Source: Burkholderiales bacterium (GTDB lineage Bacteria > Pseudomonadota > Gammaproteobacteria > Burkholderiales > Usitatibacteraceae). Taken from it: a DNA stretch of 64,000 nt. The position numbers and the translations under genes were made by a program. Location of the stretch: contig JANYBL010000044.1 of NCBI GenBank assembly GCA_025360815.1, forward strand, positions 1 through 64,000, given 5' to 3'. The notes under the pieces were generated by a model that was not told the origin of the DNA, did no database searches, and worked only from the letters and a program-made list of their open reading frames with translations. Positions 28,909 to 64,000 of this stretch are shown here, in pieces; the first letter of the stretch is position 1, and the number at the start of each line of letters is the position of its first letter.

Positions 28909-29793
28909 ATGCTAGGCATGAACGTAAAGCACTGTCGCATATTTTTATCCGCGCTGGCAGTCATCGTTTGCGGGATGGTTTCCCTAACCATTTTTGCACA
29001 GACAACTGCAACGACCTCGACAGCATCATCCCCATTTGAATTGGTCCTGATTGACGCCGCGAGCGAGAAGCAGCTTGGCGGATTTCCAGTGGATCGCGCG
29101 CTGGTCGCCAAGGCAATTATGCAATTGAAGGATGCTGGGGCTCGCGGTGTAGTGTTGAAATTTTTCTATGACCAGCCGAGTCAATCGGCAGAATCTGACA
29201 AAGCCCTGGCCAACGCAATCGGCAGCATCAAAACGTTGTTACAAGCGCGCATTGATGAGGCAGAGCTGGCTGGCAACCCGCTCCCTGCGCGGTTCTTCCA
29301 GGATGTTGTCGTGGGAAATTTTAAAACCTCGTTAACTGGAACTAGTGGCTGGATTCCGCTCGCACCGTTTGCGGCTGCGGCACACGATATCGGCTTTGTC
29401 GATATTGCTTCGCCCGATAGCGTGCCAATGATCGAGAGCTATCAGGGGAAGCCAGTCAAATCGCTCACCTTGGCTGCGCTGGAATTGGCGACCGGTGAGC
29501 GCGCAAAAGTTGAAAGTGGTGTGCGGCTAACATTGGGCAGCCAATCGCTCGCGCTCACGGAGGACAATCTAGTTGCGCTTAAACTCACCACCGTAAATCT
29601 GCCAGATGCCCTGCCCTTCACGGCATTGCTCGGCGGTAAGTTCGATAAATCGCTGTTTCGCAATAAGGTGGTGGTGATCGCCTATGACGGCGCGAAAATG
29701 CATTTCCTCACGACCAAAGCCGGCATGGTCAAAGCCCATCGTCTGTTTTATTTGGGGCTGTTGGATACGTACCGGCAACTGATTGGTAAGTAG
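28909..29793 (+). CDS. exported CHASE2-like protein without output domain
   Basis: The 294-residue product has an N-terminal membrane or signal segment (about 10-30, IFLSALAVIVCGMVSLTIFA). The rest matches the start of a CHASE2 fold: ELVLIDAASEKQLGGFPVDR, LKDAGARGVVLKFFYDQPSQ, then ALANAIGSIKTL, followed by DIGFVDIASPDSV and the late motif FRNKVVVIAYDGAKM. In true CHASE2 receptors these are PRIVIIDIDEKSL, GVVGFDVFFAEPD and GKIALVGTSA. No kinase, cyclase or further membrane segments follow. It could sense a ligand for a partner or be a decayed receptor. Start may be either of two ATGs nine bases apart. Confidence 0.65.
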   Translation: MLGMNVKHCRIFLSALAVIVCGMVSLTIFAQTTATTSTASSPFELVLIDAASEKQLGGFPVDRALVAKAIMQLKDAGARGVVLKFFYDQPSQSAESDKALANAIGSIKTLLQARIDEAELAGNPLPARFFQDVVVGNFKTSLTGTSGWIPLAPFAAAAHDIGFVDIASPDSVPMIESYQGKPVKSLTLAALELATGERAKVESGVRLTLGSQSLALTEDNLVALKLTTVNLPDALPFTALLGGKFDKSLFRNKVVVIAYDGAKMHFLTTKAGMVKAHRLFYLGLLDTYRQLIGK

Positions 29794-51714: not shown

Positions 51715-53106
51715 CTATTGTCGCTGCCGTGACTCGGCAGCGATCACATCTGGCATCACATCCGCGAGTGAAACGCCAAGCGGGCGATCATCTAATTCGA
51801 CGACAACTAAATAACCCTTATCGATACCACTTGCGGTAAATGCTTTGGCAAGCGAGAGCTGATCACTGCGTTGTAACGAGCCATCAGATTTCGACCAATA
51901 TTCCATCGCCACCAAGCAGCCAGCCGACGGTGTGCCGGGGTAAAACGAGGCACCGCGATAGTATTCAGAATTAATCGTTGTGCCGTGAATGAGCATATCG
52001 TCACGACCGGCCAAGCCTGCCAGAAAGGCTTCTTTAAACGGTTGATAGCCGCGCCATGAGGCGGGCAAAAAACTCTCATATCGCTCTTCAGTCCATGCTT
52101 CCGGCGCTACAATCAAATTCGTCAGCTCGGTATGCTCATATTCAGCAACCGCAGCCTCAATCGGCACTTTGGAATGCAGGTACGGTGTCGGACCAATCCA
52201 TTTATTGGTTGCCGTGCCCGCACCGATAATCGTGAACAACCCTTGCGGCGTATTGCCGTTGGTAATAGTGCCCGGAAGATTGGTGAGCGCGTTTGCTAAA
52301 TGCGGGATGTTGAAATAGCTGCCATCTGCGTTGCGCACAAATTGCCCACCCGGACTACGGACCATTGCCAATCCAAAGCGCTGCCGATCCTTGCGTTGGA
52401 AGCTGTAAATCACTGGCAAGCCGCCGCCAATTTTGCGAATGGGTGCAGCCAACAAGTCGGCCAGCGGCGGACGCTGTGCAAGCTCTGCGGCGGCATCTGT
52501 CGTGAGTACACGTTCCAACGCACGCAGACGCGGCTCACGGGGTTCACTAGCCCAATCGGGAAATCGCCGAGCCAGCGTCGCTTTTAGTTCTGCTTTGGCA
52601 TTTTTATCCGCTTTCAGCACAGCATATGACGCCATCGCGAACTCTCGCGGCGTGGAAAGTTTTTCGAGCAAGCGCTTCAGCGCTGAGACACTTTCTGACG
52701 CATAGTAAGTGTAGGCGGCAGCGATCACAGTGCGTTGATATTCGATGGATGCCTGCGATAAATTGCGCTCAAATTCTGCCAACGCATTCAGCACGAGGCG
52801 TCGGCCTGCATCCTGCTCCGTGTTGAATAACGCAATTGCGCTCAAAGCATCCGGCGCATCGAGGTTTAAGTTATTTTCAGCGTTCGACGCCGCCATCGCC
52901 GTGCGAATTTTCTCAATCGCGCTATTCCGTTCCGCGAGTTCCCCCTCGGTGGAGGTGATTGGCGCTGCAAAGTTTTCAACTCGGTAAGCCGCAATTTCAG
53001 CGGGTGTATGCCGCTTCTCGGGCGCTACGCTGGCGCAACCCGCTACCAACGCAACTAAAAATATGCTCAAAACAAAATAAACTGAATTGAAATAGATTTT
53101 ATTCAT
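51715..53106 (-). CDS. lipoprotein with L,D-transpeptidase-like catalytic motif
   Basis: The 463-residue protein has a signal with a lipobox (FLVALVAGCASV, Cys near residue 24), so it is probably a lipid-anchored envelope protein. The first half is helical and Ala/Glu-rich (about 40-220). The second half holds FGLAMVRSPGG, NTPQGLFTIIGAGTATNKWI and the motif MLIHGTTINSEYYRG followed by TPSAGCLVAMEYW. His, Gly and Cys are spaced like the HG-x(about 15)-S-x-G-C signature of YkuD L,D-transpeptidases. I therefore infer a cell-wall or peptide transpeptidase-like activity, but no full YkuD match can be claimed from reading. Same strand as, and downstream of, the RluA gene. Confidence 0.6.
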   Translation of the reverse strand: MNKIYFNSVYFVLSIFLVALVAGCASVAPEKRHTPAEIAAYRVENFAAPITSTEGELAERNSAIEKIRTAMAASNAENNLNLDAPDALSAIALFNTEQDAGRRLVLNALAEFERNLSQASIEYQRTVIAAAYTYYASESVSALKRLLEKLSTPREFAMASYAVLKADKNAKAELKATLARRFPDWASEPREPRLRALERVLTTDAAAELAQRPPLADLLAAPIRKIGGGLPVIYSFQRKDRQRFGLAMVRSPGGQFVRNADGSYFNIPHLANALTNLPGTITNGNTPQGLFTIIGAGTATNKWIGPTPYLHSKVPIEAAVAEYEHTELTNLIVAPEAWTEERYESFLPASWRGYQPFKEAFLAGLAGRDDMLIHGTTINSEYYRGASFYPGTPSAGCLVAMEYWSKSDGSLQRSDQLSLAKAFTASGIDKGYLVVVELDDRPLGVSLADVMPDVIAAESRQRQ

Positions 53107-54937: not shown

Positions 54938-55346
54938 ATTTTTTTGCGATGCAAAAGCGGGAATTGATTATTTTCTCATGAAGCATCGCTGAGTTGATAG
55001 TCGATGAGGCGCTTAGTTTGGGTAACACTGCTTGATCGAAGAATGAATATTAAAAGAACCAAACTTGGCTCCTAGACTGCCTTTCGGGGCCAAACTGCCC
55101 CAAACTGCAGTTCTGGCGGGGGTTTTACCAGTGTTCAGGGTATTGTAAGTGTTAATCATCCAGCCCTCTCGGCCATGGTGACGCAGTCAGCGGATTCCCA
55201 TGTGCCCATCCAAATATGCAACAATCTCCAAAGGGGGAAAAACCGTTGGACCAAGATGCAGACCATAAATTTTGCGAGCCCAGCGCATCATCAGGAAACG
55301 CCGCAGAAATTCGCACAAAACAGAAGACCATCAGCGGAGACGCAAT
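54938..55346. other. divergent intergenic region trhO / CHASE2 cyclase
   Basis: No gene is supported. It must carry both promoters. A short direct repeat (CCAAACTGC twice, 10 bases apart, near 55090-55108) with GGGGC/GCCCC pairing lies in the middle. Confidence 0.5.
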
Positions 55347-57620
55347 ATGAACGCTAAGTTTGACATTAAGAAGATATGGACGAAGTATTTTTCGTCGATT
55401 AACGTCTTTATCCGCGCAGGGTTGGGCATCGGAATTGTGGGGTTGTTCGTATTGAATTATATGTTTGGCGAACCGCTCACCTTCTTTCAGCGGCTTGAAT
55501 TGCAGACTTACGACACAAGGCTCCGCGCCACCATGCCGGAAAAAATTGACCCGCGTATCGTCATCATTGATATTGACGAAAAAAGCTTATCTGCTGAGGG
55601 CCGTTGGCCGTGGGGGCGCGATAAAATTGCAGCCCTGACCCGACAATTATTCGATCCCTATAAAACAAAGGTAGTCGGCTTCGACGTTTTTTTCGCCGAG
55701 CCCGATACAAGCTCTGGCTTGGCAAAATTAGAAGCGCTGAGCAAAGACGCGCTCAAGTCGAACACCGATTTTCAAGAAAAACTCGCCGAAATTCGTCCAT
55801 CTCTTGATTACGATAAACAGTTCGCCGAGGAAATCGGCAGGCACTCCGTTGTTTTATCGTTCGCGCCCAGCAATGATCGGAATAGCGAACTGACGAAGCT
55901 TGAGATTGGCGTTTTGCCGACACCAACGTTTTCAACAGCTACGTTCAGCGGCAAACCGTTCTCGACGCCAAGATTCACTGGTTTTAGCGCCAATCTCAAA
56001 GAATTCCAAGCAGCGGCTTCCGCCACTGGACATATTTTGCCGCTGATTGATTTTGACGGTGTACTTCGACGAGTACCAACGTTTGTGCAGTATAAAGACG
56101 CATATTACGAATCGTTATCTATTGCGACATACAGAGCTTTCCTTGATAACGAGCCCATCATCGTCAATATGCGAAAGGATGACGAAGGCGATGGCCGCCT
56201 GCGCTTAGATAACGTGAGCTTCGGCAAAAAAACGGTTATTTCTCTGGATGACGACGGCACGGCATTGATTCCGTATCGAGGCAAGAATCCGATGTATCGT
56301 TATATTTCAGCGACGGATGTCATTCAAGGAAAACTAACGCCCGGTGAACTCGACGGAAAAATTGCGTTGGTTGGAACATCCGCTGCTGGCTTGTTCGATT
56401 TGCGAAATACCCCCGTCGGCGAGATTTATCCGGGCGTTGAGGCGCATGCCAACTTGTTATCTGGTTATTTGGATAACAACATCAAACGCCGTCCCCACTT
56501 TGAATTCGCGATCAAAATCTGGATCGTCTTGGCGATAGGTATCGCGCTGGCTTTGGCCTTGGTTAAACTCAATCCGCTCTGGTCAACCGTGACTGTCGCC
56601 CTAACCGCTGCGGCGGTGATCGGGTTTAATATGTATTGGTGGAGCACCAATCTTGTTCTGCCTCTTGCCATGCCACTTTTGTTGATAGGCGCATTGTATT
56701 TATTCAATATGGCCTACGGCTTCTTCATCGAGGCGCGCTCTAAGCGCCAAATCACCGGCATCTTCGGGACTTATGTGCCCAAAGAGTTGGTGGAAGAAAT
56801 GGCGAAAAATCCGACCAACTATTCGACCAAAGGTGAAAGCCGCGATATGACGGTGTTGTTTTCGGATATTCGTAGCTTCACCTCGATCTCTGAAGGGCTA
56901 TCGCCGACGGAATTGACGGCAATGATGAACGATTATCTGACCGACATGACACAGACGATTCAGACACAACGCGGCACAATTGACAAATACATCGGTGACG
57001 CGATCATGGCGTTTTGGGGTGCGCCAGTCACCGATGAAAAGCACGCCGAACATGCGCTGCTGTCGGCATTGGCGATGCAAAAACGCATCAAAGAAATTGG
57101 CCCTGCGTATATCAAGCGCGGCTGGCCAAAGTTAGAAATTGGCGTAGGCTTGAATTGCGGTGTGATGAACGTCGGCGACATGGGCTCGACATTTCGACGC
57201 GCCTACACCGTGATGGGCGATGCCGTAAATTTGGCAGCGCGTTTGGAAGGTCAAACTAAGGAATATGGTGTCGGCATTTTGGTGTCGGAAAACATCGTGA
57301 ACGCCGTGCCAAGCGTGGTCTATCGCGAGCTGGATCGGATTCGTGTGAAGGGCAAACTGGAGCCGATTAGCATTTATGAACCCGTGGGCATGAAGGGCGA
57401 GATCGTCGAGCAGGTGTTGAACGAGATTGATCGCTTCCACCGGGCGCTGGATCGTTATAAAGAGCAACGCTGGGACGATGCTGAACAAATATTGACCGCC
57501 CTCTCACACGCCGACCCATCGCGCAAAGCGTACAAGGTTTATTTGCAGCGTATCGCCAATTTCAAACTCAACCCTCCAGGCAAGAATTGGGACGGCGTGT
57601 TTGTCGCGACGACGAAATAA
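55347..57620 (+). CDS. CHASE2-domain adenylate cyclase
   Basis: The ATG giving MNAKFDIKKIW is chosen because GGAG precedes it by eight bases. The product is 757 residues. One membrane helix (about 22-40) precedes a periplasmic CHASE2 domain (about 45-390) with RIVIIDIDEKSLSAEGRWPW, VVGFDVFFAEPD and KIALVGTSAAGLFDLR. Three membrane helices follow (about 395-470), then a class III cyclase domain (about 500-690): VLFSDIRSFTSISEG, KYIGDAIMAFWGAP with the metal Asp residues, and YTVMGDAVNLAARLEG. The Lys in DKYIGD fits ATP use. It would turn a periplasmic signal into cAMP. About 65 C-terminal residues form a helical tail (VEQVLNEIDRFHRALDRYKE). Confidence 0.94.
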   Translation: MNAKFDIKKIWTKYFSSINVFIRAGLGIGIVGLFVLNYMFGEPLTFFQRLELQTYDTRLRATMPEKIDPRIVIIDIDEKSLSAEGRWPWGRDKIAALTRQLFDPYKTKVVGFDVFFAEPDTSSGLAKLEALSKDALKSNTDFQEKLAEIRPSLDYDKQFAEEIGRHSVVLSFAPSNDRNSELTKLEIGVLPTPTFSTATFSGKPFSTPRFTGFSANLKEFQAAASATGHILPLIDFDGVLRRVPTFVQYKDAYYESLSIATYRAFLDNEPIIVNMRKDDEGDGRLRLDNVSFGKKTVISLDDDGTALIPYRGKNPMYRYISATDVIQGKLTPGELDGKIALVGTSAAGLFDLRNTPVGEIYPGVEAHANLLSGYLDNNIKRRPHFEFAIKIWIVLAIGIALALALVKLNPLWSTVTVALTAAAVIGFNMYWWSTNLVLPLAMPLLLIGALYLFNMAYGFFIEARSKRQITGIFGTYVPKELVEEMAKNPTNYSTKGESRDMTVLFSDIRSFTSISEGLSPTELTAMMNDYLTDMTQTIQTQRGTIDKYIGDAIMAFWGAPVTDEKHAEHALLSALAMQKRIKEIGPAYIKRGWPKLEIGVGLNCGVMNVGDMGSTFRRAYTVMGDAVNLAARLEGQTKEYGVGILVSENIVNAVPSVVYRELDRIRVKGKLEPISIYEPVGMKGEIVEQVLNEIDRFHRALDRYKEQRWDDAEQILTALSHADPSRKAYKVYLQRIANFKLNPPGKNWDGVFVATTK

Positions 57621-57827
57621 TTATATGAGCACAGCAAAGTGATTTTTGAAACCCTAGTGGCGTGGTTAGGGTGAGGGAAGTGCCGAACGAAGCCTCGCGC
57701 GCAGTCGAGTGCGTAGAACAAGCGCTGCAGTATTTTTCTCATGCCTAAAGCCTCACCTTCTGAGCCCCACACCGCTCATCGTTCATCCCTCATCCCTCAT
57801 CCCGCCCCCTCATTCTTGCCCCCGCCG

Positions 57828-58880
57828 ATGATCACTTACCCACACCTCACCCCACCAGCACCCGGCGAATCGATTCTGGTTGCGCCCGGCATTTACTGGA
57901 TACGGATGCCGTTACCGTTTAAGTTGGATCATATTAATTTATGGCTGCTTGAAGATAACGACGCAGAGACCGGCGAGGGATGGACCATCGTCGATACCGG
58001 CTATGGCATCGCCACCACCCATGCGATTTGGGAAGGGCATTTTGATGAGACCATGCGCGGCCTGCCAGTGAAGCGGATTATTGTGACGCACTATCATCCC
58101 GATCATGTCGGCTGTGCAGCTTGGCTGCATGAGCGCACCGGTGCTGCCTTGTGGATGACCGCAACAGAATATTTGTCGGCACACGCAGCCGTTGAGGATA
58201 CAGCGGGCTTTGATAACGCCAATTCAGCACAGCTTTTTTTAGCACACGGGCTGGCGAAGATTCGCCCAGATTTTGCAGCAGCACAGAATGAGCGTAGTGG
58301 CGGCTACAAACGCGGCGTGCCGAGCGTTCCCAAGCAATTTAATCGCATAATGGCCGGCGATTCCCTTCGTATCGGCCACCGCGAGTGGCGCATCATCACA
58401 GCATTTGGCCATGCGCCTGAACATGCGACGCTATTTTCAGCGGACGACAACGTGCTGATTTCCGGCGATCAAGTGTTACCGCGCATCACCACCAATGTCG
58501 GGGTGTGGGGAAATCAGCCCGAGGCAAATCCCCTTAAACAGTTTCTGGACAGTAATCAACAATTCTTGTCGTTGCCTGATGCGACGCTGGTATTGCCATC
58601 CCATGATCGGGTGTTCAACGGATTGCGCGAGCGCGTCAACGAATTGGCTGCCCATCACGCGGCGCGGCTGATTGAGTTGATGTCCGCCATTCATGAACCG
58701 AAATCAGCCGCCGAGATTTTGCCGGTGCTATTTAAACGCGAGCTCGACAATCACCAACTTGTATTTGCAATCGGGGAGGCGATCGCGCATTTACATTTTC
58801 TTTGGTTTGCGGGGCGTGCCAAACGTAGCAAAGGCGCGGACGGTGTTTTCCTATTTCAGGCGGTTCCAGGGTCGTACTAA
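57828..58880 (+). CDS. MBL-fold metallo-hydrolase
   Basis: The start is the ATG giving MITYPHLTPPAPGES; an ATG 29 codons upstream would add a low-complexity leader encoded by CATCCCT repeats. The 350-residue protein has the metallo-beta-lactamase metal motif IIVTHYHPDHVGCAAWL, GHAPEHATLFSADDNVLISG with Asp ligand in GDQVLP, and LPSHDRVFNGL. The N-terminal strand includes PFKLDHINLWLLED. It resembles the glyoxalase II/ hydroxyacylglutathione-hydrolase-like clade with an added C-terminal helical part. The substrate is unknown. It lies 207 bp after the cyclase gene. Confidence 0.85.
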   Translation: MITYPHLTPPAPGESILVAPGIYWIRMPLPFKLDHINLWLLEDNDAETGEGWTIVDTGYGIATTHAIWEGHFDETMRGLPVKRIIVTHYHPDHVGCAAWLHERTGAALWMTATEYLSAHAAVEDTAGFDNANSAQLFLAHGLAKIRPDFAAAQNERSGGYKRGVPSVPKQFNRIMAGDSLRIGHREWRIITAFGHAPEHATLFSADDNVLISGDQVLPRITTNVGVWGNQPEANPLKQFLDSNQQFLSLPDATLVLPSHDRVFNGLRERVNELAAHHAARLIELMSAIHEPKSAAEILPVLFKRELDNHQLVFAIGEAIAHLHFLWFAGRAKRSKGADGVFLFQAVPGSY

Positions 58881-58954
58881 CCTCACCAGAACACCCGGGG
58901 ACATCCTAAAATGGAAGCATCGACCAAGCACTAATCCACTAGTCCAATAGTCCG

Positions 58955-61462
58955 TTAGTCCTCAGGCGCTTCGATCATCGGCAATTTCACCGTGAACGTT
59001 GTCCCACGCTTATCGCCTTGAAATGCGGCCACTTTGCTCGACACCGCGATTGTGCCGCCATGACGCAATACCACCGTTTTGACAAAAACCAGTCCTAAAC
59101 CAATACCATCTTCCTCCGGCTGACCTTCTTGCCGAATCCGCGCGAAGCGGGTGAACAACTTGTTCGCATCGACGTCGGCGATACCGTAGCCTTGGTCGAT
59201 GATGTCAACAAACCACATGGGTGGTATGGCGCGATTCAAGCTCAAACGACAGGTTACGGAGGTCTGAGGCGGGCTGTATTTGGTTGCGTTTGAGAGCAGA
59301 TTCATCAAGACGCGGGTGAGCAGATCGCGATCTCCATTCACCCATGCTTCGGCAGCGGGCATATCGTTAGTGATCTTGATACTTTTAGCCGTGGCCAACG
59401 TCCTTGCTTCCTCAGTAGCATCAAGCAGGAGCTCGCTCAAATCTAGCGGCTCGAAATCTTGCGGCTTGGATCGCTCGGCTTTGGCGAGACGCAAAAAATC
59501 ATCCGCTAACGTGAGTGTGCGGCGCGCGTAGCGGCCAATACGGTCATTGAGCTTTGCGCTGGGCATGCTGCTGGGATCTTCGCGCTGCATTTCGAGCAGC
59601 GTCAAAATAGAGGCTTGCGGGGAGCGCATATCATGCGACAAAAACCGAAGCGCTTCATCGCGACGACGCTCCGATTCCCGCAGCGGCGAAATATCAGTAA
59701 TCGTCACAATCGTCGCTGTATGCAAACCAATATCGGAAAACGATGGCGCGATTTGCACCAGATATTCAAGATCATCGACGCCAATTGCTTCCACCGTAAT
59801 GGCCCGGGTATCATCAGCGACATTGGCCCAAAGTCCTCGCCAGTCGTGGCTTTCGTGATGTTGGATCGTGGACATTAGTTCAAAAACGTCGCGGCCTTCG
59901 AGTGGTTGTTGCTTGGGTTCGCCGGGTGTCGATTCAATCACGGTTCCGAACAATTTATCCGCACTGGTGTTGGCCAGTAGCACATTGCCATTAAAATCTG
60001 TGACGAGAGCCGCCTCAGGCAGGCTCTCCAATGAATTCACGACAAAGCGGTTCAGACTGCGCAAGCGCTGTGTCGCCGCACGCAACGCAACGATACGCTG
60101 CTCGACGACATCAGGAACGAACACGTTTGATGAATGTGTTGGCTGCGTCACGCGCTGCGGCATCAATACCGACCCGCCTTTGGGTGCAATCACGCGCGCC
60201 GCCTCGGGTGTAAACACGCTCGGCTCCTGTTCAAGTGTCAAGAGTTCTTCGTTCAAATAATTTTGGGTGGCCTCCAATTTTCGCCAACTCCAAAGCGGGT
60301 AAGCCAAGACGATACACAGCAGCAACGGAACGGGCGGTATCCAGACCGAGGCATAGCGAAATAACAACAAAACAGTAAAGAATACCGCCGCGATAAGCAA
60401 GGCTGTCAGCGCAATCGCTTGTTGTGGCGTGAGCCACAAATAGGCGAGCAGCATCATTAAGACGGCGGTCACTGTCAACAATGCTGCAGCCCACATCGGC
60501 ATGATTCGAAGATCAATCCCTTCGCGCAAGCCTTGCAGCACATTGGCGTGAATCTCGATCCCCGACATGGCACGGTCGAATCCTGAAACCGGCGTCGGAA
60601 ATTCATCACCCGAACCGCTGACGGTCATACCGATCAACACAATCTTGTCTTTGAACGCCGCCGCCGGATAGTCGCCGCTCAATACTGAAAAATACGGCAG
60701 CGGCATAAAATGCCCCGGCGGCCCCGCATAAGGAATGAGATAAGCATGATCGGTCGCCCATACGGCACCGCGCCGTACGGACTGCTTGCCTGCCACGCCC
60801 GCACTTGTCGATTGAGCCGTTTCACCGGGTAACCCGGTTCGCGCCGACCAAATCGCGGGGTCAGCGACCGACAAGGCCGCCAGCGCCAACAAATCGTAGC
60901 GGGGCTTGGTCATCCCGGCACGTAAAAATACCTGGCGCACCACGCCATCTTTGTCGAGCTGTGACGCGATATGCCCTAGCCTTGCAGCACCGTTGGCAAA
61001 AGCCGGGATAGGTTCGGATTCGCCAGACAACCCATCAATACTGATGCGCGCGGTTAAGGGCAACACGACGCGCTGATTGCGCAAAATAGACGCTGCGAGG
61101 ACATCGTCACTCGTCGGATCGCGCTGGTCAGGTTCCGACAAAATCACGTCGAGCGCAACGGCTTTAGCGCCCGCTTCGGTAAGGCGATCAATCAACGTTG
61201 CATGGATATTGCGCCGCCACGGCCAACGTCCAATCTGACGAAGGCTTTCCTCGTCGATACCGATAATCACAATTTCGGGTAGTACTGGCCGCTGCCAAAG
61301 GGCAATCGCTTGGTCGTAAAGTGTTTGGTCAAGCCTTGAAAACCATTCACCACGCATCGCGACCAGCGCTGTTGTGGTGAGAAAAAATGCGATGATCAGC
61401 CACTCGCGAATGACTGGATGCCGCATCGTGTTCAGCAAATTGGTCTTATCGAGGCGCATCAA
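58955..61462 (-). CDS. CHASE2-domain sensor histidine kinase
   Basis: The 835-residue protein has one N-terminal membrane helix (about 18-36), a periplasmic CHASE2 domain (about 45-320) with EIVIIGIDEESLRQIGRWPW, AVALDVILSEPDQRD and KDKIVLIGMTVSG, and three membrane helices (about 325-395). A PAS-like segment (about 475-590, AALVTDFNGNVLLANTSADK) leads to the HisKA box FLSHDMRSPQASILTLLEM (His near 609). The ATPase domain has LMNLLSNATKYSP (N box, about 724), IDQGYGIAD (G1) and EDGIGLGLVFVKTVVLRHGG (G2). It autophosphorylates and most likely drives the response regulator at the right edge of the window. Confidence 0.94.
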   Translation of the reverse strand: MMRLDKTNLLNTMRHPVIREWLIIAFFLTTTALVAMRGEWFSRLDQTLYDQAIALWQRPVLPEIVIIGIDEESLRQIGRWPWRRNIHATLIDRLTEAGAKAVALDVILSEPDQRDPTSDDVLAASILRNQRVVLPLTARISIDGLSGESEPIPAFANGAARLGHIASQLDKDGVVRQVFLRAGMTKPRYDLLALAALSVADPAIWSARTGLPGETAQSTSAGVAGKQSVRRGAVWATDHAYLIPYAGPPGHFMPLPYFSVLSGDYPAAAFKDKIVLIGMTVSGSGDEFPTPVSGFDRAMSGIEIHANVLQGLREGIDLRIMPMWAAALLTVTAVLMMLLAYLWLTPQQAIALTALLIAAVFFTVLLLFRYASVWIPPVPLLLCIVLAYPLWSWRKLEATQNYLNEELLTLEQEPSVFTPEAARVIAPKGGSVLMPQRVTQPTHSSNVFVPDVVEQRIVALRAATQRLRSLNRFVVNSLESLPEAALVTDFNGNVLLANTSADKLFGTVIESTPGEPKQQPLEGRDVFELMSTIQHHESHDWRGLWANVADDTRAITVEAIGVDDLEYLVQIAPSFSDIGLHTATIVTITDISPLRESERRRDEALRFLSHDMRSPQASILTLLEMQREDPSSMPSAKLNDRIGRYARRTLTLADDFLRLAKAERSKPQDFEPLDLSELLLDATEEARTLATAKSIKITNDMPAAEAWVNGDRDLLTRVLMNLLSNATKYSPPQTSVTCRLSLNRAIPPMWFVDIIDQGYGIADVDANKLFTRFARIRQEGQPEEDGIGLGLVFVKTVVLRHGGTIAVSSKVAAFQGDKRGTTFTVKLPMIEAPED

Positions 61463-61575
61463 TCAGGCGGAATCCGACTGCTCTCACGGCCACAACCATC
61501 TGCATCGATAGCGCGGTGACGACAGGGGTGGCACGCGGAGAACCCCAATTTAAGATCATACTTGGCGGGGTACCG

Positions 61576-63411
61576 CTACAGGCCTAGTATCGGTAAACCA
61601 AACATCAGCAACCACCATTGCGAAGCATAGATTTCTACCTGCTGTGTTTCGCTCCAGGGTCCTTTGAATCCCTCAAACCGCGCGGGTTGAGTAGCCAGAA
61701 CCGCTTCGCTGGACGATTTATCGACGTTGGTATTCATGCTTATATTCGCGCTGCCCCCGACGTTCGGCGGAACATCAACCGCCCGTACCCGGATGTAATA
61801 AACATTTTTGCTCAGGCGATCCGCGACGACCTCTGGCTTATCGACAATACGATCAATCACGATGTCGGTAAAACGATCGTTACGCGAAAGTTGGAACTGG
61901 TAAAACTGACCACCGGATTGACCAGACTCCTTCACGCCGCCCCATGAAAAACGCGCTTCATTGCCCTTGACGCGCGGGACCGCAAGTATTGCTTTCGCAT
62001 CACGCGCGGCAAAAGCTTGTGCATCGCTAAACGGACCCACATCGCCATTACCGCGAACACTCGCAACTCGCCATTGATATTGGCCTGGCGTTAACCCAGC
62101 ATCTAGCGAAAAGGCCGTGCCCGTGATGACACGTTTATCGACCAGCGGCGCAGCAAATTGAGATTTTCCATCACGATCAAGTTGACGATCGATCTGAATC
62201 TGATAGGCCACAGCCTCTTTGGTTTCGGCCCATTCAAATCGGCCCGGCCCGGCCGGAACCTGCGCGTTCGGCGCAGGGGTTGCTAAAAACGGTGGCACCG
62301 GGGTTGCACGCACTTCAACCGTTTTAACGGCATCATTGCCCTCCAAGTCATTCTCATCGATACCGCGAATGCGTAAGTACAATTTTCCATCGGGCAGCGC
62401 AGCCAGTTCAATCATCGGCACCGCTGCTTGTGCATCTGCAATTAAATTATTGAAGTTAGCATCAGTCGCGACTTGACCGCGATAGCGCTTTGCCATTGCA
62501 AGCGCGGGAAATTGGAAACGCGTTTTGGCTGTCGGCGTTAACGCGGCAATGCCACTTAAATCTGGCGCTGGCAACAGGGCGATTGGCGCAGATGGCGGTT
62601 TACCGGCCTCCACCACAGACCCAAAGCCCGCTGGTAACGATAGCAGCTTCGGCTGCCCGCTGGATGACACGGCAACTGAACCCTCGACCACCTCACTTAA
62701 TGCGCGTGTGCCAGCTTCGTTGCCAGCGACTCGGAACACCGTTCCGCGCACACCCATGTTCGAGGTTGGCGTGCGAATTTCGTAGCGGCTGCTCGGTCCT
62801 TTTTGTTTCGCAACGGAGGTCTCGACGCGGCCCGATTCAAGCCTCACGACCGTATCCGCCACACCGCCGGTATTGGCTAACTGGCGGGCGTTCTCAAGCT
62901 GAATCGACGATTTTGATTGCACTTTTAAGATCGATCCGTCTGCCAAGCGAATACTGACAAAACCCGTATCACCAGTTTTTAATTTGTCGCCCTCTTTGAC
63001 CGCGCTGCCAACGGCCAGGGTACCGCTGCTCGCGGTGACGCTACCCTGCAACGCAATCACTTCCGCGTTCGCGAGCTCGGTACGCATTTGTGAAACGGGC
63101 ATCCGAATACGCGTGCCCACTGGAATGAGATTCGGATTGTCCACCTGATTGATTTTTTGCAACGCTTGCCAGTTATGCGTTTTGATTAGAAAGCGTTTGG
63201 CAATTTTGATTAGCGAATCGCCCCGCTCCGCAACATGCGTATAGAAACTTTCTTCGGCATGGCTGGCAGTGGTGAAGAACAATATGCTGAGTAACAGCAT
63301 GCCGAACGATAATCCGCAGCCGCGCGAGAACGAGCCCGCAAAAAAATTAGCGGCAACAATACGGCCCCCGGGTTTCGGCAACGGCACTGAGGCAGGCGTA
63401 AATTCGGGCAT
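61576..63411 (-). CDS. periplasmic FecR/LysM-domain protein
   Basis: The 611-residue protein has an export or anchor segment (about 33-52, GLSFGMLLLSILFFTTASHA), one LysM domain (about 57-107, YTHVAERGDSLIKIAKRFLI then NPNLIPVGTRIRMP) and a FecR-type domain (about 115-265) with ALQGSVTASSGTLAVGSAVK, TGDTGFVSIRLADGS and SNMGVRGTVFRV. Three or more beta-sandwich repeats follow (about 290-580). The C-terminus is strongly hydrophobic (QWWLLMFGLPILGL). LysM suggests peptidoglycan binding. It lies directly upstream of the CHASE2 kinase gene (113 bp), which implies a shared signalling role. Confidence 0.88.
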   Translation of the reverse strand: MPEFTPASVPLPKPGGRIVAANFFAGSFSRGCGLSFGMLLLSILFFTTASHAEESFYTHVAERGDSLIKIAKRFLIKTHNWQALQKINQVDNPNLIPVGTRIRMPVSQMRTELANAEVIALQGSVTASSGTLAVGSAVKEGDKLKTGDTGFVSIRLADGSILKVQSKSSIQLENARQLANTGGVADTVVRLESGRVETSVAKQKGPSSRYEIRTPTSNMGVRGTVFRVAGNEAGTRALSEVVEGSVAVSSSGQPKLLSLPAGFGSVVEAGKPPSAPIALLPAPDLSGIAALTPTAKTRFQFPALAMAKRYRGQVATDANFNNLIADAQAAVPMIELAALPDGKLYLRIRGIDENDLEGNDAVKTVEVRATPVPPFLATPAPNAQVPAGPGRFEWAETKEAVAYQIQIDRQLDRDGKSQFAAPLVDKRVITGTAFSLDAGLTPGQYQWRVASVRGNGDVGPFSDAQAFAARDAKAILAVPRVKGNEARFSWGGVKESGQSGGQFYQFQLSRNDRFTDIVIDRIVDKPEVVADRLSKNVYYIRVRAVDVPPNVGGSANISMNTNVDKSSSEAVLATQPARFEGFKGPWSETQQVEIYASQWWLLMFGLPILGL

Positions 63412-63823
63412 TGCGGTCTCTTTGAAAAGTATCGTTGGGCAATCGATTGGCGCCTCGGACGCGCTGGCCGACCGCGCGAGGGCGAATCAGGGATGTCGCA
63501 CACGCAACTGATGAATTAAGGCATAAAATCGAGGCGCATAGTCGTTTTTTACAAAAAATCACATTGGCAGCATTTTGGATGGCTTGTCGCTAATCACGCC
63601 AATCACGCCAATCGCGAGAATATCGGGAAAGGTGGCAATAGTGGCAGATGCAACAAGCCGTGACTAGGTCTGCGCATTTACGCGCTCGACCTCCCCAATA
63701 CTCACTGCCCCTTACACCTTACACCTTACCTCTTACCGACTACCCATTACCCATTACACATCGCGAGCGGAGCCGCAAAGCGAACTCATAAAGCGAGCCT
63801 CGAGAAAAGACTTCAAAGGAAGG
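63412..63823. other. intergenic region between FecR gene and response regulator
   Basis: No gene is supported. It contains short tandem repeats: AATCACGCC (63592-63609 and a partial third copy), CTTACAC (63711-63729) and TACCCAT (63741-63754). No terminator or promoter is clear. Confidence 0.5.
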
Positions 63824-64000
63824 TCAAGCCGATGGCTTTTCAGGCGTGGTGACACGCTCCAAGCGATAACCGAAATTATAAATGGGCATGAGTTTCACGC
63901 CGTTCTCGGTACCCAATTCCAATTTCTTGCGAACCCGGCTGACGTGGGTATCAACGGTTCGTGATTGGACTTCGCTGCTGCGTCCCCAAACGCTTTCAGA
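63824..64000 (-). CDS. OmpR/PhoB-family response regulator, C-terminal part only
   Basis: The last 58 codons are present; the gene continues past the right edge. They encode the winged-helix C-terminus: VWGRSSEVQSRTVDTHVSRV, RKKLELGTENGVKLMPIYNF and GYRLERV, ending TTPEKPSA. The recognition helix RTVDTHVSRVRKKL is typical of PhoB-like DNA-binding domains. It is the likely partner of the CHASE2 kinase and the first gene of the regulator-FecR-kinase set on the minus strand. Confidence 0.9.
   Translation of the reverse strand, partial: SESVWGRSSEVQSRTVDTHVSRVRKKLELGTENGVKLMPIYNFGYRLERVTTPEKPSA

Follow-up and report, generated by a model that had tools for sequence, protein, structure and literature searches.

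Gene organization of the locus

The window analysed here is a 64,000-nucleotide (nt) stretch of DNA from a Burkholderiales bacterium of the Usitatibacteraceae (positions 1-64000 of the 105,550-base contig JANYBL010000044.1, assembly GCA_025360815.1; genome of 3.74 megabases). At its end, three genes of the minus strand encode, in this order, an OmpR/PhoB-type response regulator, a protein with LysM and FecR domains (the LysM-FecR protein) and a histidine kinase with a CHASE2 domain. An earlier note, made from the sequence alone, had described three genes in one direction and proposed that they form a single sensory cassette; the common strand and the gene order were confirmed. The cassette is of a known type; the new point is that LysM-FecR stays with CHASE2 when the output changes, for which no published report was found in the open-access literature. 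The features of the cassette are listed below (aa, amino acids).

63824..64000, minus strand: OmpR/PhoB-type response regulator, C-terminal 58 residues and stop codon (Pfam)
Contig 63824-64531, minus strand: the same regulator, whole gene, 235 aa
63412..63823, minus strand: intergenic stretch between the regulator and LysM-FecR genes, 412 nt, with short heptamer arrays
61576..63411, minus strand: LysM-FecR protein, 611 aa, with a signal-like N-terminal helix (Pfam, structure model)
63097..63228, minus strand: LysM domain, aa 62-105 (Pfam 4e-7)
62674..62988, minus strand: FecR domain, aa 142-246 (Pfam 2.5e-15, structure match)
61777..62523, minus strand: three FNIII-like beta-sandwich domains, about aa 297-545 (model, structure matches)
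58955..61462, minus strand: CHASE2 histidine kinase, 835 aa, TTG start as listed, methionine also at the second codon
60449..61375, minus strand: CHASE2 domain, aa 30-338, predicted to be periplasmic (Pfam 1.8e-55, model)
59474..59662, minus strand: HisKA domain, aa 601-663, H-box FLSHDMRSPQ (Pfam, 25.1 bits)
58976..59335, minus strand: HATPase_c domain, aa 710-829 (Pfam 1.5e-20)

Since the regulator gene extends to contig position 64531, the part inside the window is limited to the stop codon and 58 of the 235 residues. The complete product contains Response_reg (6e-21) and Trans_reg_C (5e-18) domains. The LysM-FecR and kinase genes are separated by 113 nt, and the cassette is thus loosely packed. 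In the relatives measured, the regulator and LysM-FecR genes either overlap or are separated by a gap shorter than 412 nt (59 nt in the nearest relative). A dispersed element within the 412-nt gap was ruled out, as its sequence is present in one copy in the genome. A scan for promoters and terminators gave signals no stronger than those in shuffled sequences, and no Rfam match at gathering scores was found between positions 53000 and 64000. Sixteen plasmid records matched, every one of them at less than 60% identity.

In the kinase, the HATPase_c domain is accompanied by HisKA (1.8e-5; 25.1 bits against a cut-off of 26.9) and PAS (0.003) matches, each slightly below the Pfam cut-off. A model of the CHASE2 domain with its flanking helices (pLDDT 92) has one long helix ahead of the domain and three behind it. 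The protein thus combines the elements of a CHASE2 receptor histidine kinase: a CHASE2 domain placed by the model between membrane helices, HisKA with its phospho-acceptor histidine, and HATPase_c. Six charged CHASE2 residues are invariant among 40 aligned sequences (D70, R84, E110, D119, D172 and R176). The CHASE2 profile found no relative among solved PDB sequences, a Foldseek search with the model gave no PDB match at E <= 0.001, and the best VIA-align score was Z 4.8. As the model was searched together with its helices, over 400 residues, these results do not demonstrate a new fold.

In its structure model (pLDDT 87), the LysM-FecR protein has a signal-like helix, then LysM and a FecR beta domain, and finally the three FNIII-like domains, which gave structure matches of Z about 11. 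Residues 139-280 superimposed on the PupR signalling domain 6ovk_R (Z 17.5, 2.1 A, 130 residues), and the FecR part also matched an anti-sigma factor from Parabacteroides in two entries (Z 15.7-15.9). These matches indicate that the modelled domain is a true FecR domain. The domain assignments of the earlier note (a PhoB-type regulator, LysM and FecR domains, and a kinase with a periplasmic CHASE2 domain) therefore stand, the periplasmic side of CHASE2 being a prediction.

FecR-type anti-sigma regulators carry an N-terminal cytoplasmic anti-sigma region and an internal membrane helix, and the genes of an extracytoplasmic function (ECF) sigma factor and a TonB receptor lie next to them. The window protein shares the fold of the FecR beta domain with these FecR/PupR regulators but not their layout, as its signal-like helix is followed by LysM and then by FecR. 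Pfam lists only LysM and FecR, with no anti-sigma part and no further FecR-type subdomain. The 15 regional proteins scanned, a subset of the open reading frames, included no ECF sigma factor, no TonB receptor and no other outer-membrane receptor.

A short hydrophobic C-terminal tail, often WWLLLL-like, was observed in seven of 44 aligned LysM-FecR proteins (that of the window and those of loci L216, L217, L219, L228, L229 and L230); the remaining 37 have no tail.

Relationship with the BiofilmReg operon

An operon of Burkholderiales composed of these three kinds of gene had been reported in 2016 under the name BiofilmReg (Voronina et al., PMC5192318). According to the available text of that report, biofilm was lost in Burkholderia contaminans on insertion in the regulator gene, the three-gene form was argued to be ancestral, orthologous operons were scored as positive from two adjacent components, and the signal of CHASE2 was unknown to the authors. 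Gene order and strand in BiofilmReg (orthologous to the BCAL1443 region) are the same as in the window, and its LysM-FecR protein (COG4254) corresponds to that of the window. In comparison with Burkholderia lata R-18110 (locus L133), the regulator shows 47% identity (E 3e-75), the LysM-FecR protein 34% over 396 aa (E 4e-53) and the kinase 36% over 826 columns (E 8e-143). Judged by sequence and gene order, the window cassette is a member of the BiofilmReg type, a system already known. The earlier note had regarded the pairing of FecR with CHASE2 as unusual; it had in fact been published, in PMC5192318 and, for CHASE2 cyclases, in PMC9239204.

Several differences were found. The BiofilmReg genes overlap or are separated by 10 nt and share one promoter, whereas gaps of 412 and 113 nt occur in the window; such gaps are still compatible with membership, because a wide gap does not preclude one transcript. 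The fourth BiofilmReg gene, encoding a DUF4136 protein, is missing, and the next gene downstream lies on the opposite strand. This is no bar to membership either, given that the three-gene version is the one described as ancestral (PMC5192318). The window LysM-FecR protein is longer at its C-terminus (611 aa versus about 450-500 aa in aligned Burkholderiaceae proteins), and the alignment suggests about one additional FNIII-like domain. Genes for a CHASE2 cyclase and a metallo-beta-lactamase-fold protein, arranged tail-to-tail with the cassette, are a further feature of the window as compared with BiofilmReg.

FecR genes also neighbour CHASE2 receptors in two other systems. In Campylobacterota, a cluster of CHASE2 adenylate cyclase, FecR, phosphodiesterase and TPR genes (PMC9239204) resembles the window in having a FecR-domain protein beside a CHASE2 receptor and differs in its cyclic AMP (cAMP) output and in having no kinase; LysM is not mentioned in the available text. 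In Sinorhizobium meliloti, the locus tags of cyaD1-smc02177-smc02178 (PMC5498481) likewise place a FecR gene beside a CHASE2 cyclase.

Conservation of FecR-CHASE2 adjacency in Burkholderiales

Among the best 80 of 522 kinase relatives in named Burkholderiales, 74 have the regulator, LysM-FecR and kinase genes in this order. In the other six, the regulator (one case) or the FecR gene (three cases) is lacking, or the locus is cut by a contig end (two cases). One locus, L148, fell below the threshold of automatic classification and was counted from the locus listing. The kinase of genome G249, assigned to the same order as the window, matches the kinase of Caballeronia sp. dw_276 exactly, in agreement with Burkholderiales as that order.

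Two separate searches, with LysM-FecR and with CHASE2, were applied to 200 genomes of the order. Merging of 47 listed pieces gave 43 LysM-FecR genes, 34 of which lie within 5 kilobases (kb) of a CHASE2 gene of the cassette's subfamily (31 directly adjacent); conversely, LysM-FecR was present at 34 of the 39 places with subfamily CHASE2. The seed alignments (A4 and A5) came mostly from loci with the genes adjacent. When genomes providing seeds were left out, the counts were 24/32 for LysM-FecR and 25/30 for CHASE2, although named seed species could remain among these genomes. In 41 relatives, both LysM-FecR and kinase were detected in 16, the kinase only in one, LysM-FecR only in three and neither in 21 (thresholds: E < 1e-29 for LysM-FecR and E <= 1e-60 for the kinase query, matched by its CHASE2 half only in G102). 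Joint occurrence was significant when kinship was ignored (Fisher 1e-7).

A 3295-aa frame with CHASE2 in genome G167 was considered as a natural FecR-CHASE2 fusion and rejected, since its FecR lies in another frame on the opposite strand. In locus L275 (3195-6078), a solo LysM-FecR gene is followed 25 nt downstream by a gene for a GGDEF protein with no recognisable CHASE2.

Replacement of the output domain

The sequences themselves show which domains are present, in what order, and that LysM-FecR is coupled to CHASE2 in a conserved way; this coupling extends to loci in which the output differs. The output was read in 24 of the 34 joined loci, and comprises a kinase in 17 and GGDEF or GGDEF-EAL, i.e. 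cyclic di-GMP (c-di-GMP) enzymes, in seven; some loci were picked for unusual lengths, so 7/24 is not an unbiased share. According to Pfam, LysM-FecR is directly followed by CHASE2-GGDEF in L263, L265 and L266 (539, 540 and 528 aa, respectively), and by CHASE2-PAS-GGDEF-EAL in L229, L256, L257 and L259. The FecR partner carries LysM in all six complete cases (L257 is cut). The gap between LysM-FecR and CHASE2 ranges from -4 to 21 nt in six of these loci, while the listed frames of L259 overlap more. Locus classes were assigned with our own profiles and checked with Pfam on subsets; the profiles missed LysM in L229 and L259, where Pfam detects it.

The regulator gene behaves differently. It is present in none of the six swapped loci with readable upstream DNA, and the same script found it in 20 of the 21 kinase-type loci, the exception being L258 (L234, cut by a contig end, was excluded). 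In trees built from 51 loci, one for FecR and one for CHASE2, the seven loci with a swapped output sit among kinase-type ones. Four output changes were counted on each tree, with a possible minimum of two; the well-supported branches alone force fewer (two, kinase label). In the CHASE2 tree, L266, L232, L228 and L264 lie on a long branch, probably owing to cut-short domains.

In the simplest reading of these loci, FecR goes with CHASE2 and the regulator goes with the kinase: FecR would belong with CHASE2 because LysM-FecR stays while kinase and regulator give way to GGDEF or GGDEF-EAL. Its retention through output changes suggests that LysM-FecR and CHASE2 work together.

CHASE2 neighbourhoods across the phylum

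CHASE2 was found in 186 of 299 genomes of a phylum sample. From at least about 150 places, 80 CHASE2 regions in 61 genomes were chosen for their spread of genera and frame lengths. A FecR gene was present in 34 of these regions, compared with 0.74 expected from its genome-wide density in the same genomes, the observed number being based on our own profile, the expected one on Pfam counts, and the regions not being independent of each other. All nine own-profile matches submitted to Pfam were FecR. The adjacency predicted in the earlier note was thus found both within the order and beyond it.

Divided by output, FecR genes occur in 9/11 kinase, 21/57 cyclase, 4/6 other and 0/6 serine/threonine kinase regions. 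FecR would thus appear to track CHASE2 rather than the output, because it also flanks CHASE2 cyclases phylum-wide. In 14 cyclase regions FecR lies within 200 nt; six of these pairs are tail-to-tail, -4 to 83 nt apart (L058, L059, L060, L061, L119 and L120). The genes of CHASE2 serine/threonine kinases (L070, L078, L081, L087, L109 and L112) adjoin PP2C-like and FHA-like genes, assigned with Pfam in L078 only.

Pfam identified an OmpA-family gene directly beside FecR in seven loci of cyclase or other type (L066, L085, L092, L093, L095, L096 and L110), and this neighbour may play the role that LysM plays in the window protein. Beside FecR in L105, L124 and L083 there are genes of TPR proteins whose C-terminal part is barrel-like.

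Proposed mechanism and alternative explanations

We give roughly even chances to the reading of the locus as a BiofilmReg-type, three-gene, envelope-sensing two-component cassette, in which the LysM-FecR protein is a peptidoglycan-tethered regulator of CHASE2. We infer that this protein would be secreted and held to peptidoglycan by LysM, and that in the periplasm its FecR/FNIII part would regulate the CHASE2 ectodomain of the kinase, an inner-membrane protein. A change in the binding state of LysM-FecR would alter kinase activity, and the kinase would phosphorylate the adjacent regulator and so change transcription. FecR would stand on the input (CHASE2) side, while outputs would be exchangeable. 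A comparable principle is known from YfiBNR, where a signalling enzyme of the inner membrane is under the control of an envelope protein that binds the wall; the proteins of the two systems are not known to be related. That CHASE2 can restrain its output is indicated by plasmid-borne CyaD1 of S. meliloti, which produces cAMP constitutively when CHASE2 is removed, as stated in a figure legend of PMC5498481.

A number of observations weigh against this reading. The 412-nt gap makes co-transcription at this locus less certain. For nine of the 43 LysM-FecR genes in the 200 genomes, CHASE2 of the subfamily is not found nearby (one of them, G439/L270, has a more distant CHASE2 two genes upstream), five of the 39 subfamily CHASE2 places have no FecR, and extra solo LysM-FecR copies occur within the window's genus (L216 and L219; L217 and L218, which run to contig edges, were not counted as solo). 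The solo gene of L272 adjoins a serine hydroxymethyltransferase gene. Across the phylum, FecR is missing in 36 of the 57 CHASE2-cyclase regions and in all six CHASE2-serine/threonine-kinase regions. Several forks near the swapped members of the trees are weak. In a mirror-tree comparison of 89 loci, the distance matrix of FecR correlated with that of CHASE2 at 0.906, of the kinase core at 0.940 and of the regulator at 0.903, and its partial correlation was higher with the kinase core (0.54) than with CHASE2 (0.35). Domain-specific co-evolution of FecR and CHASE2 was therefore rejected, as there was no excess; the whole cassette is co-inherited, with nothing specific to the FecR-CHASE2 pair. 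Finally, the S. meliloti FecR gene smc02177 is dispensable for perception of the plant shoot signal and is a target of Clr, as reported in the available part of PMC5498481. The interpretation in the earlier note, in which FecR/LysM presents a signal of cell-wall state to CHASE2, remains plausible and is supported in its genomic part alone: conserved adjacency and a common cassette were found, and the covariation that it anticipated was not.

The S. meliloti data lend weight to an explanation that we consider possible though unlikely, namely that CHASE2 binds a ligand of its own, LysM-FecR being no partner in sensing but an effector or envelope protein that is transcribed along with it and kept at a level set by the pathway. 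Expression of smc02177 is raised in culture by CHASE2 cyclases and Clr, and its mutant perceives the signal and loses control of secondary infection (PMC5498481, whose authors allow for other signals). Solo LysM-FecR genes and the invariant charged residues of CHASE2, as a ligand pocket might require, would also fit. Such an effector would, however, hardly be expected to stay upstream of CHASE2-GGDEF and CHASE2-GGDEF-EAL, where no local regulator gene remains to control it, or next to cyclase genes on the opposite strand, as in the six tail-to-tail pairs within 200 nt. LysM-FecR might instead relay a signal from an outer-membrane protein to CHASE2, as FecR and PupR do from a TonB receptor, with the wall serving as a scaffold only. 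The fold shared with the PupR signalling domain, the TPR/barrel-like protein genes beside FecR in some CHASE2 loci, and the response of S. meliloti CHASE2 cyclases to a plant protein via the outer-membrane barrel NsrA (PMC13001267, available text) are in line with this idea. We regard it as improbable, since neither an outer-membrane receptor among the 15 scanned proteins nor a further FecR-type subdomain was found.

Mere inheritance by lineage, with an old operon kept without functional contact, would account for the co-inheritance of the three genes as a block (distance correlations 0.90-0.94). It appears highly improbable, because the block has been broken up, with kinase and regulator replaced and FecR-CHASE2 left, and because the adjacency recurs phylum-wide with other architectures. 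The proposal of one sensory cassette is supported, and the FecR-CHASE2 adjacency is strongly conserved and outlasts output replacement.

As a tentative and still doubtful generalization, we hypothesize that FecR-domain proteins may be periplasmic co-receptors of CHASE2, forming a portable input module that is often tied to peptidoglycan (by a fused LysM or an adjacent OmpA-family gene) and is plugged into phosphorelay, cAMP or c-di-GMP outputs. If so, TonB receptors and sigma factors would be joined by a second family of FecR signalling partners, and CHASE2 would sense by binding a protein, not a small molecule. With a conserved partner in the periplasm that outlasts output swaps, there would be a concrete, testable route to the signal of the widespread CHASE2 domain and a link from binding of the wall to the kinase, cAMP and c-di-GMP pathways.

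Neighbouring CHASE2 genes and other local features

Five CHASE2 genes were identified in this genome, and the window contains two of them besides the cassette kinase. The features concerned are:

55272..57620, plus strand: CHASE2 adenylate/guanylate cyclase, tail-to-tail with the cassette
57741..58880, plus strand: metallo-beta-lactamase-fold protein, between the cyclase and the cassette
28909..29793, plus strand: CHASE2-only protein, 294 aa, with no output domain (Pfam 7e-16)

One locus thus carries two CHASE2 receptors of differing output, the cyclase group (55272-58880, plus strand) and the kinase cassette. Both plus-strand neighbours are kept beside the cassette in all six inspected loci with enough contig (L006 and L223-L227), which belong to the window's genus and one sister genus; they are absent in G314, from another sister genus. 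A single LysM-FecR protein may serve both the kinase and the neighbouring cyclase, but this would not be obligatory: in genus member G301, which consists of one contig, the only CHASE2 gene is approximately as long as the cyclase gene, and neither a kinase match nor a strong match to LysM-FecR is present. The N-terminus of the CHASE2-only protein appears signal-like by eye, and CHASE2-matching frames of similar size (286-320 aa) are present in five members of the genus.

Outside the window, at 76.6-79.6 kb of the contig (L007 6560-9639), a gene encoding a CHASE2 adenylate cyclase is followed by one for a 344-aa protein without a Pfam match; the next gene in the row encodes a caspase-MORN protein (L007 4045-6414). 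The 344-aa protein (contig 76.6-77.6 kb) gave no match to solved-structure sequences, and a profile comparison that looked for a FecR-like N-terminal domain matched an FNIII-like part only (Prob 67). It was matched in 19 genomes, with CHASE2 nearby in at least 16 among the CHASE2 matches listed. The position of its gene resembles that of Magnetospirillum mtxA, as described in the available text of PMC4439547.

Tandem arrays of 7-8-base units were observed at three sites: in the gap between the regulator and LysM-FecR genes (63708-63761), at the start of the metallo-beta-lactamase-fold gene (57775-57803) and at the end of the kinase gene (58929-58961).

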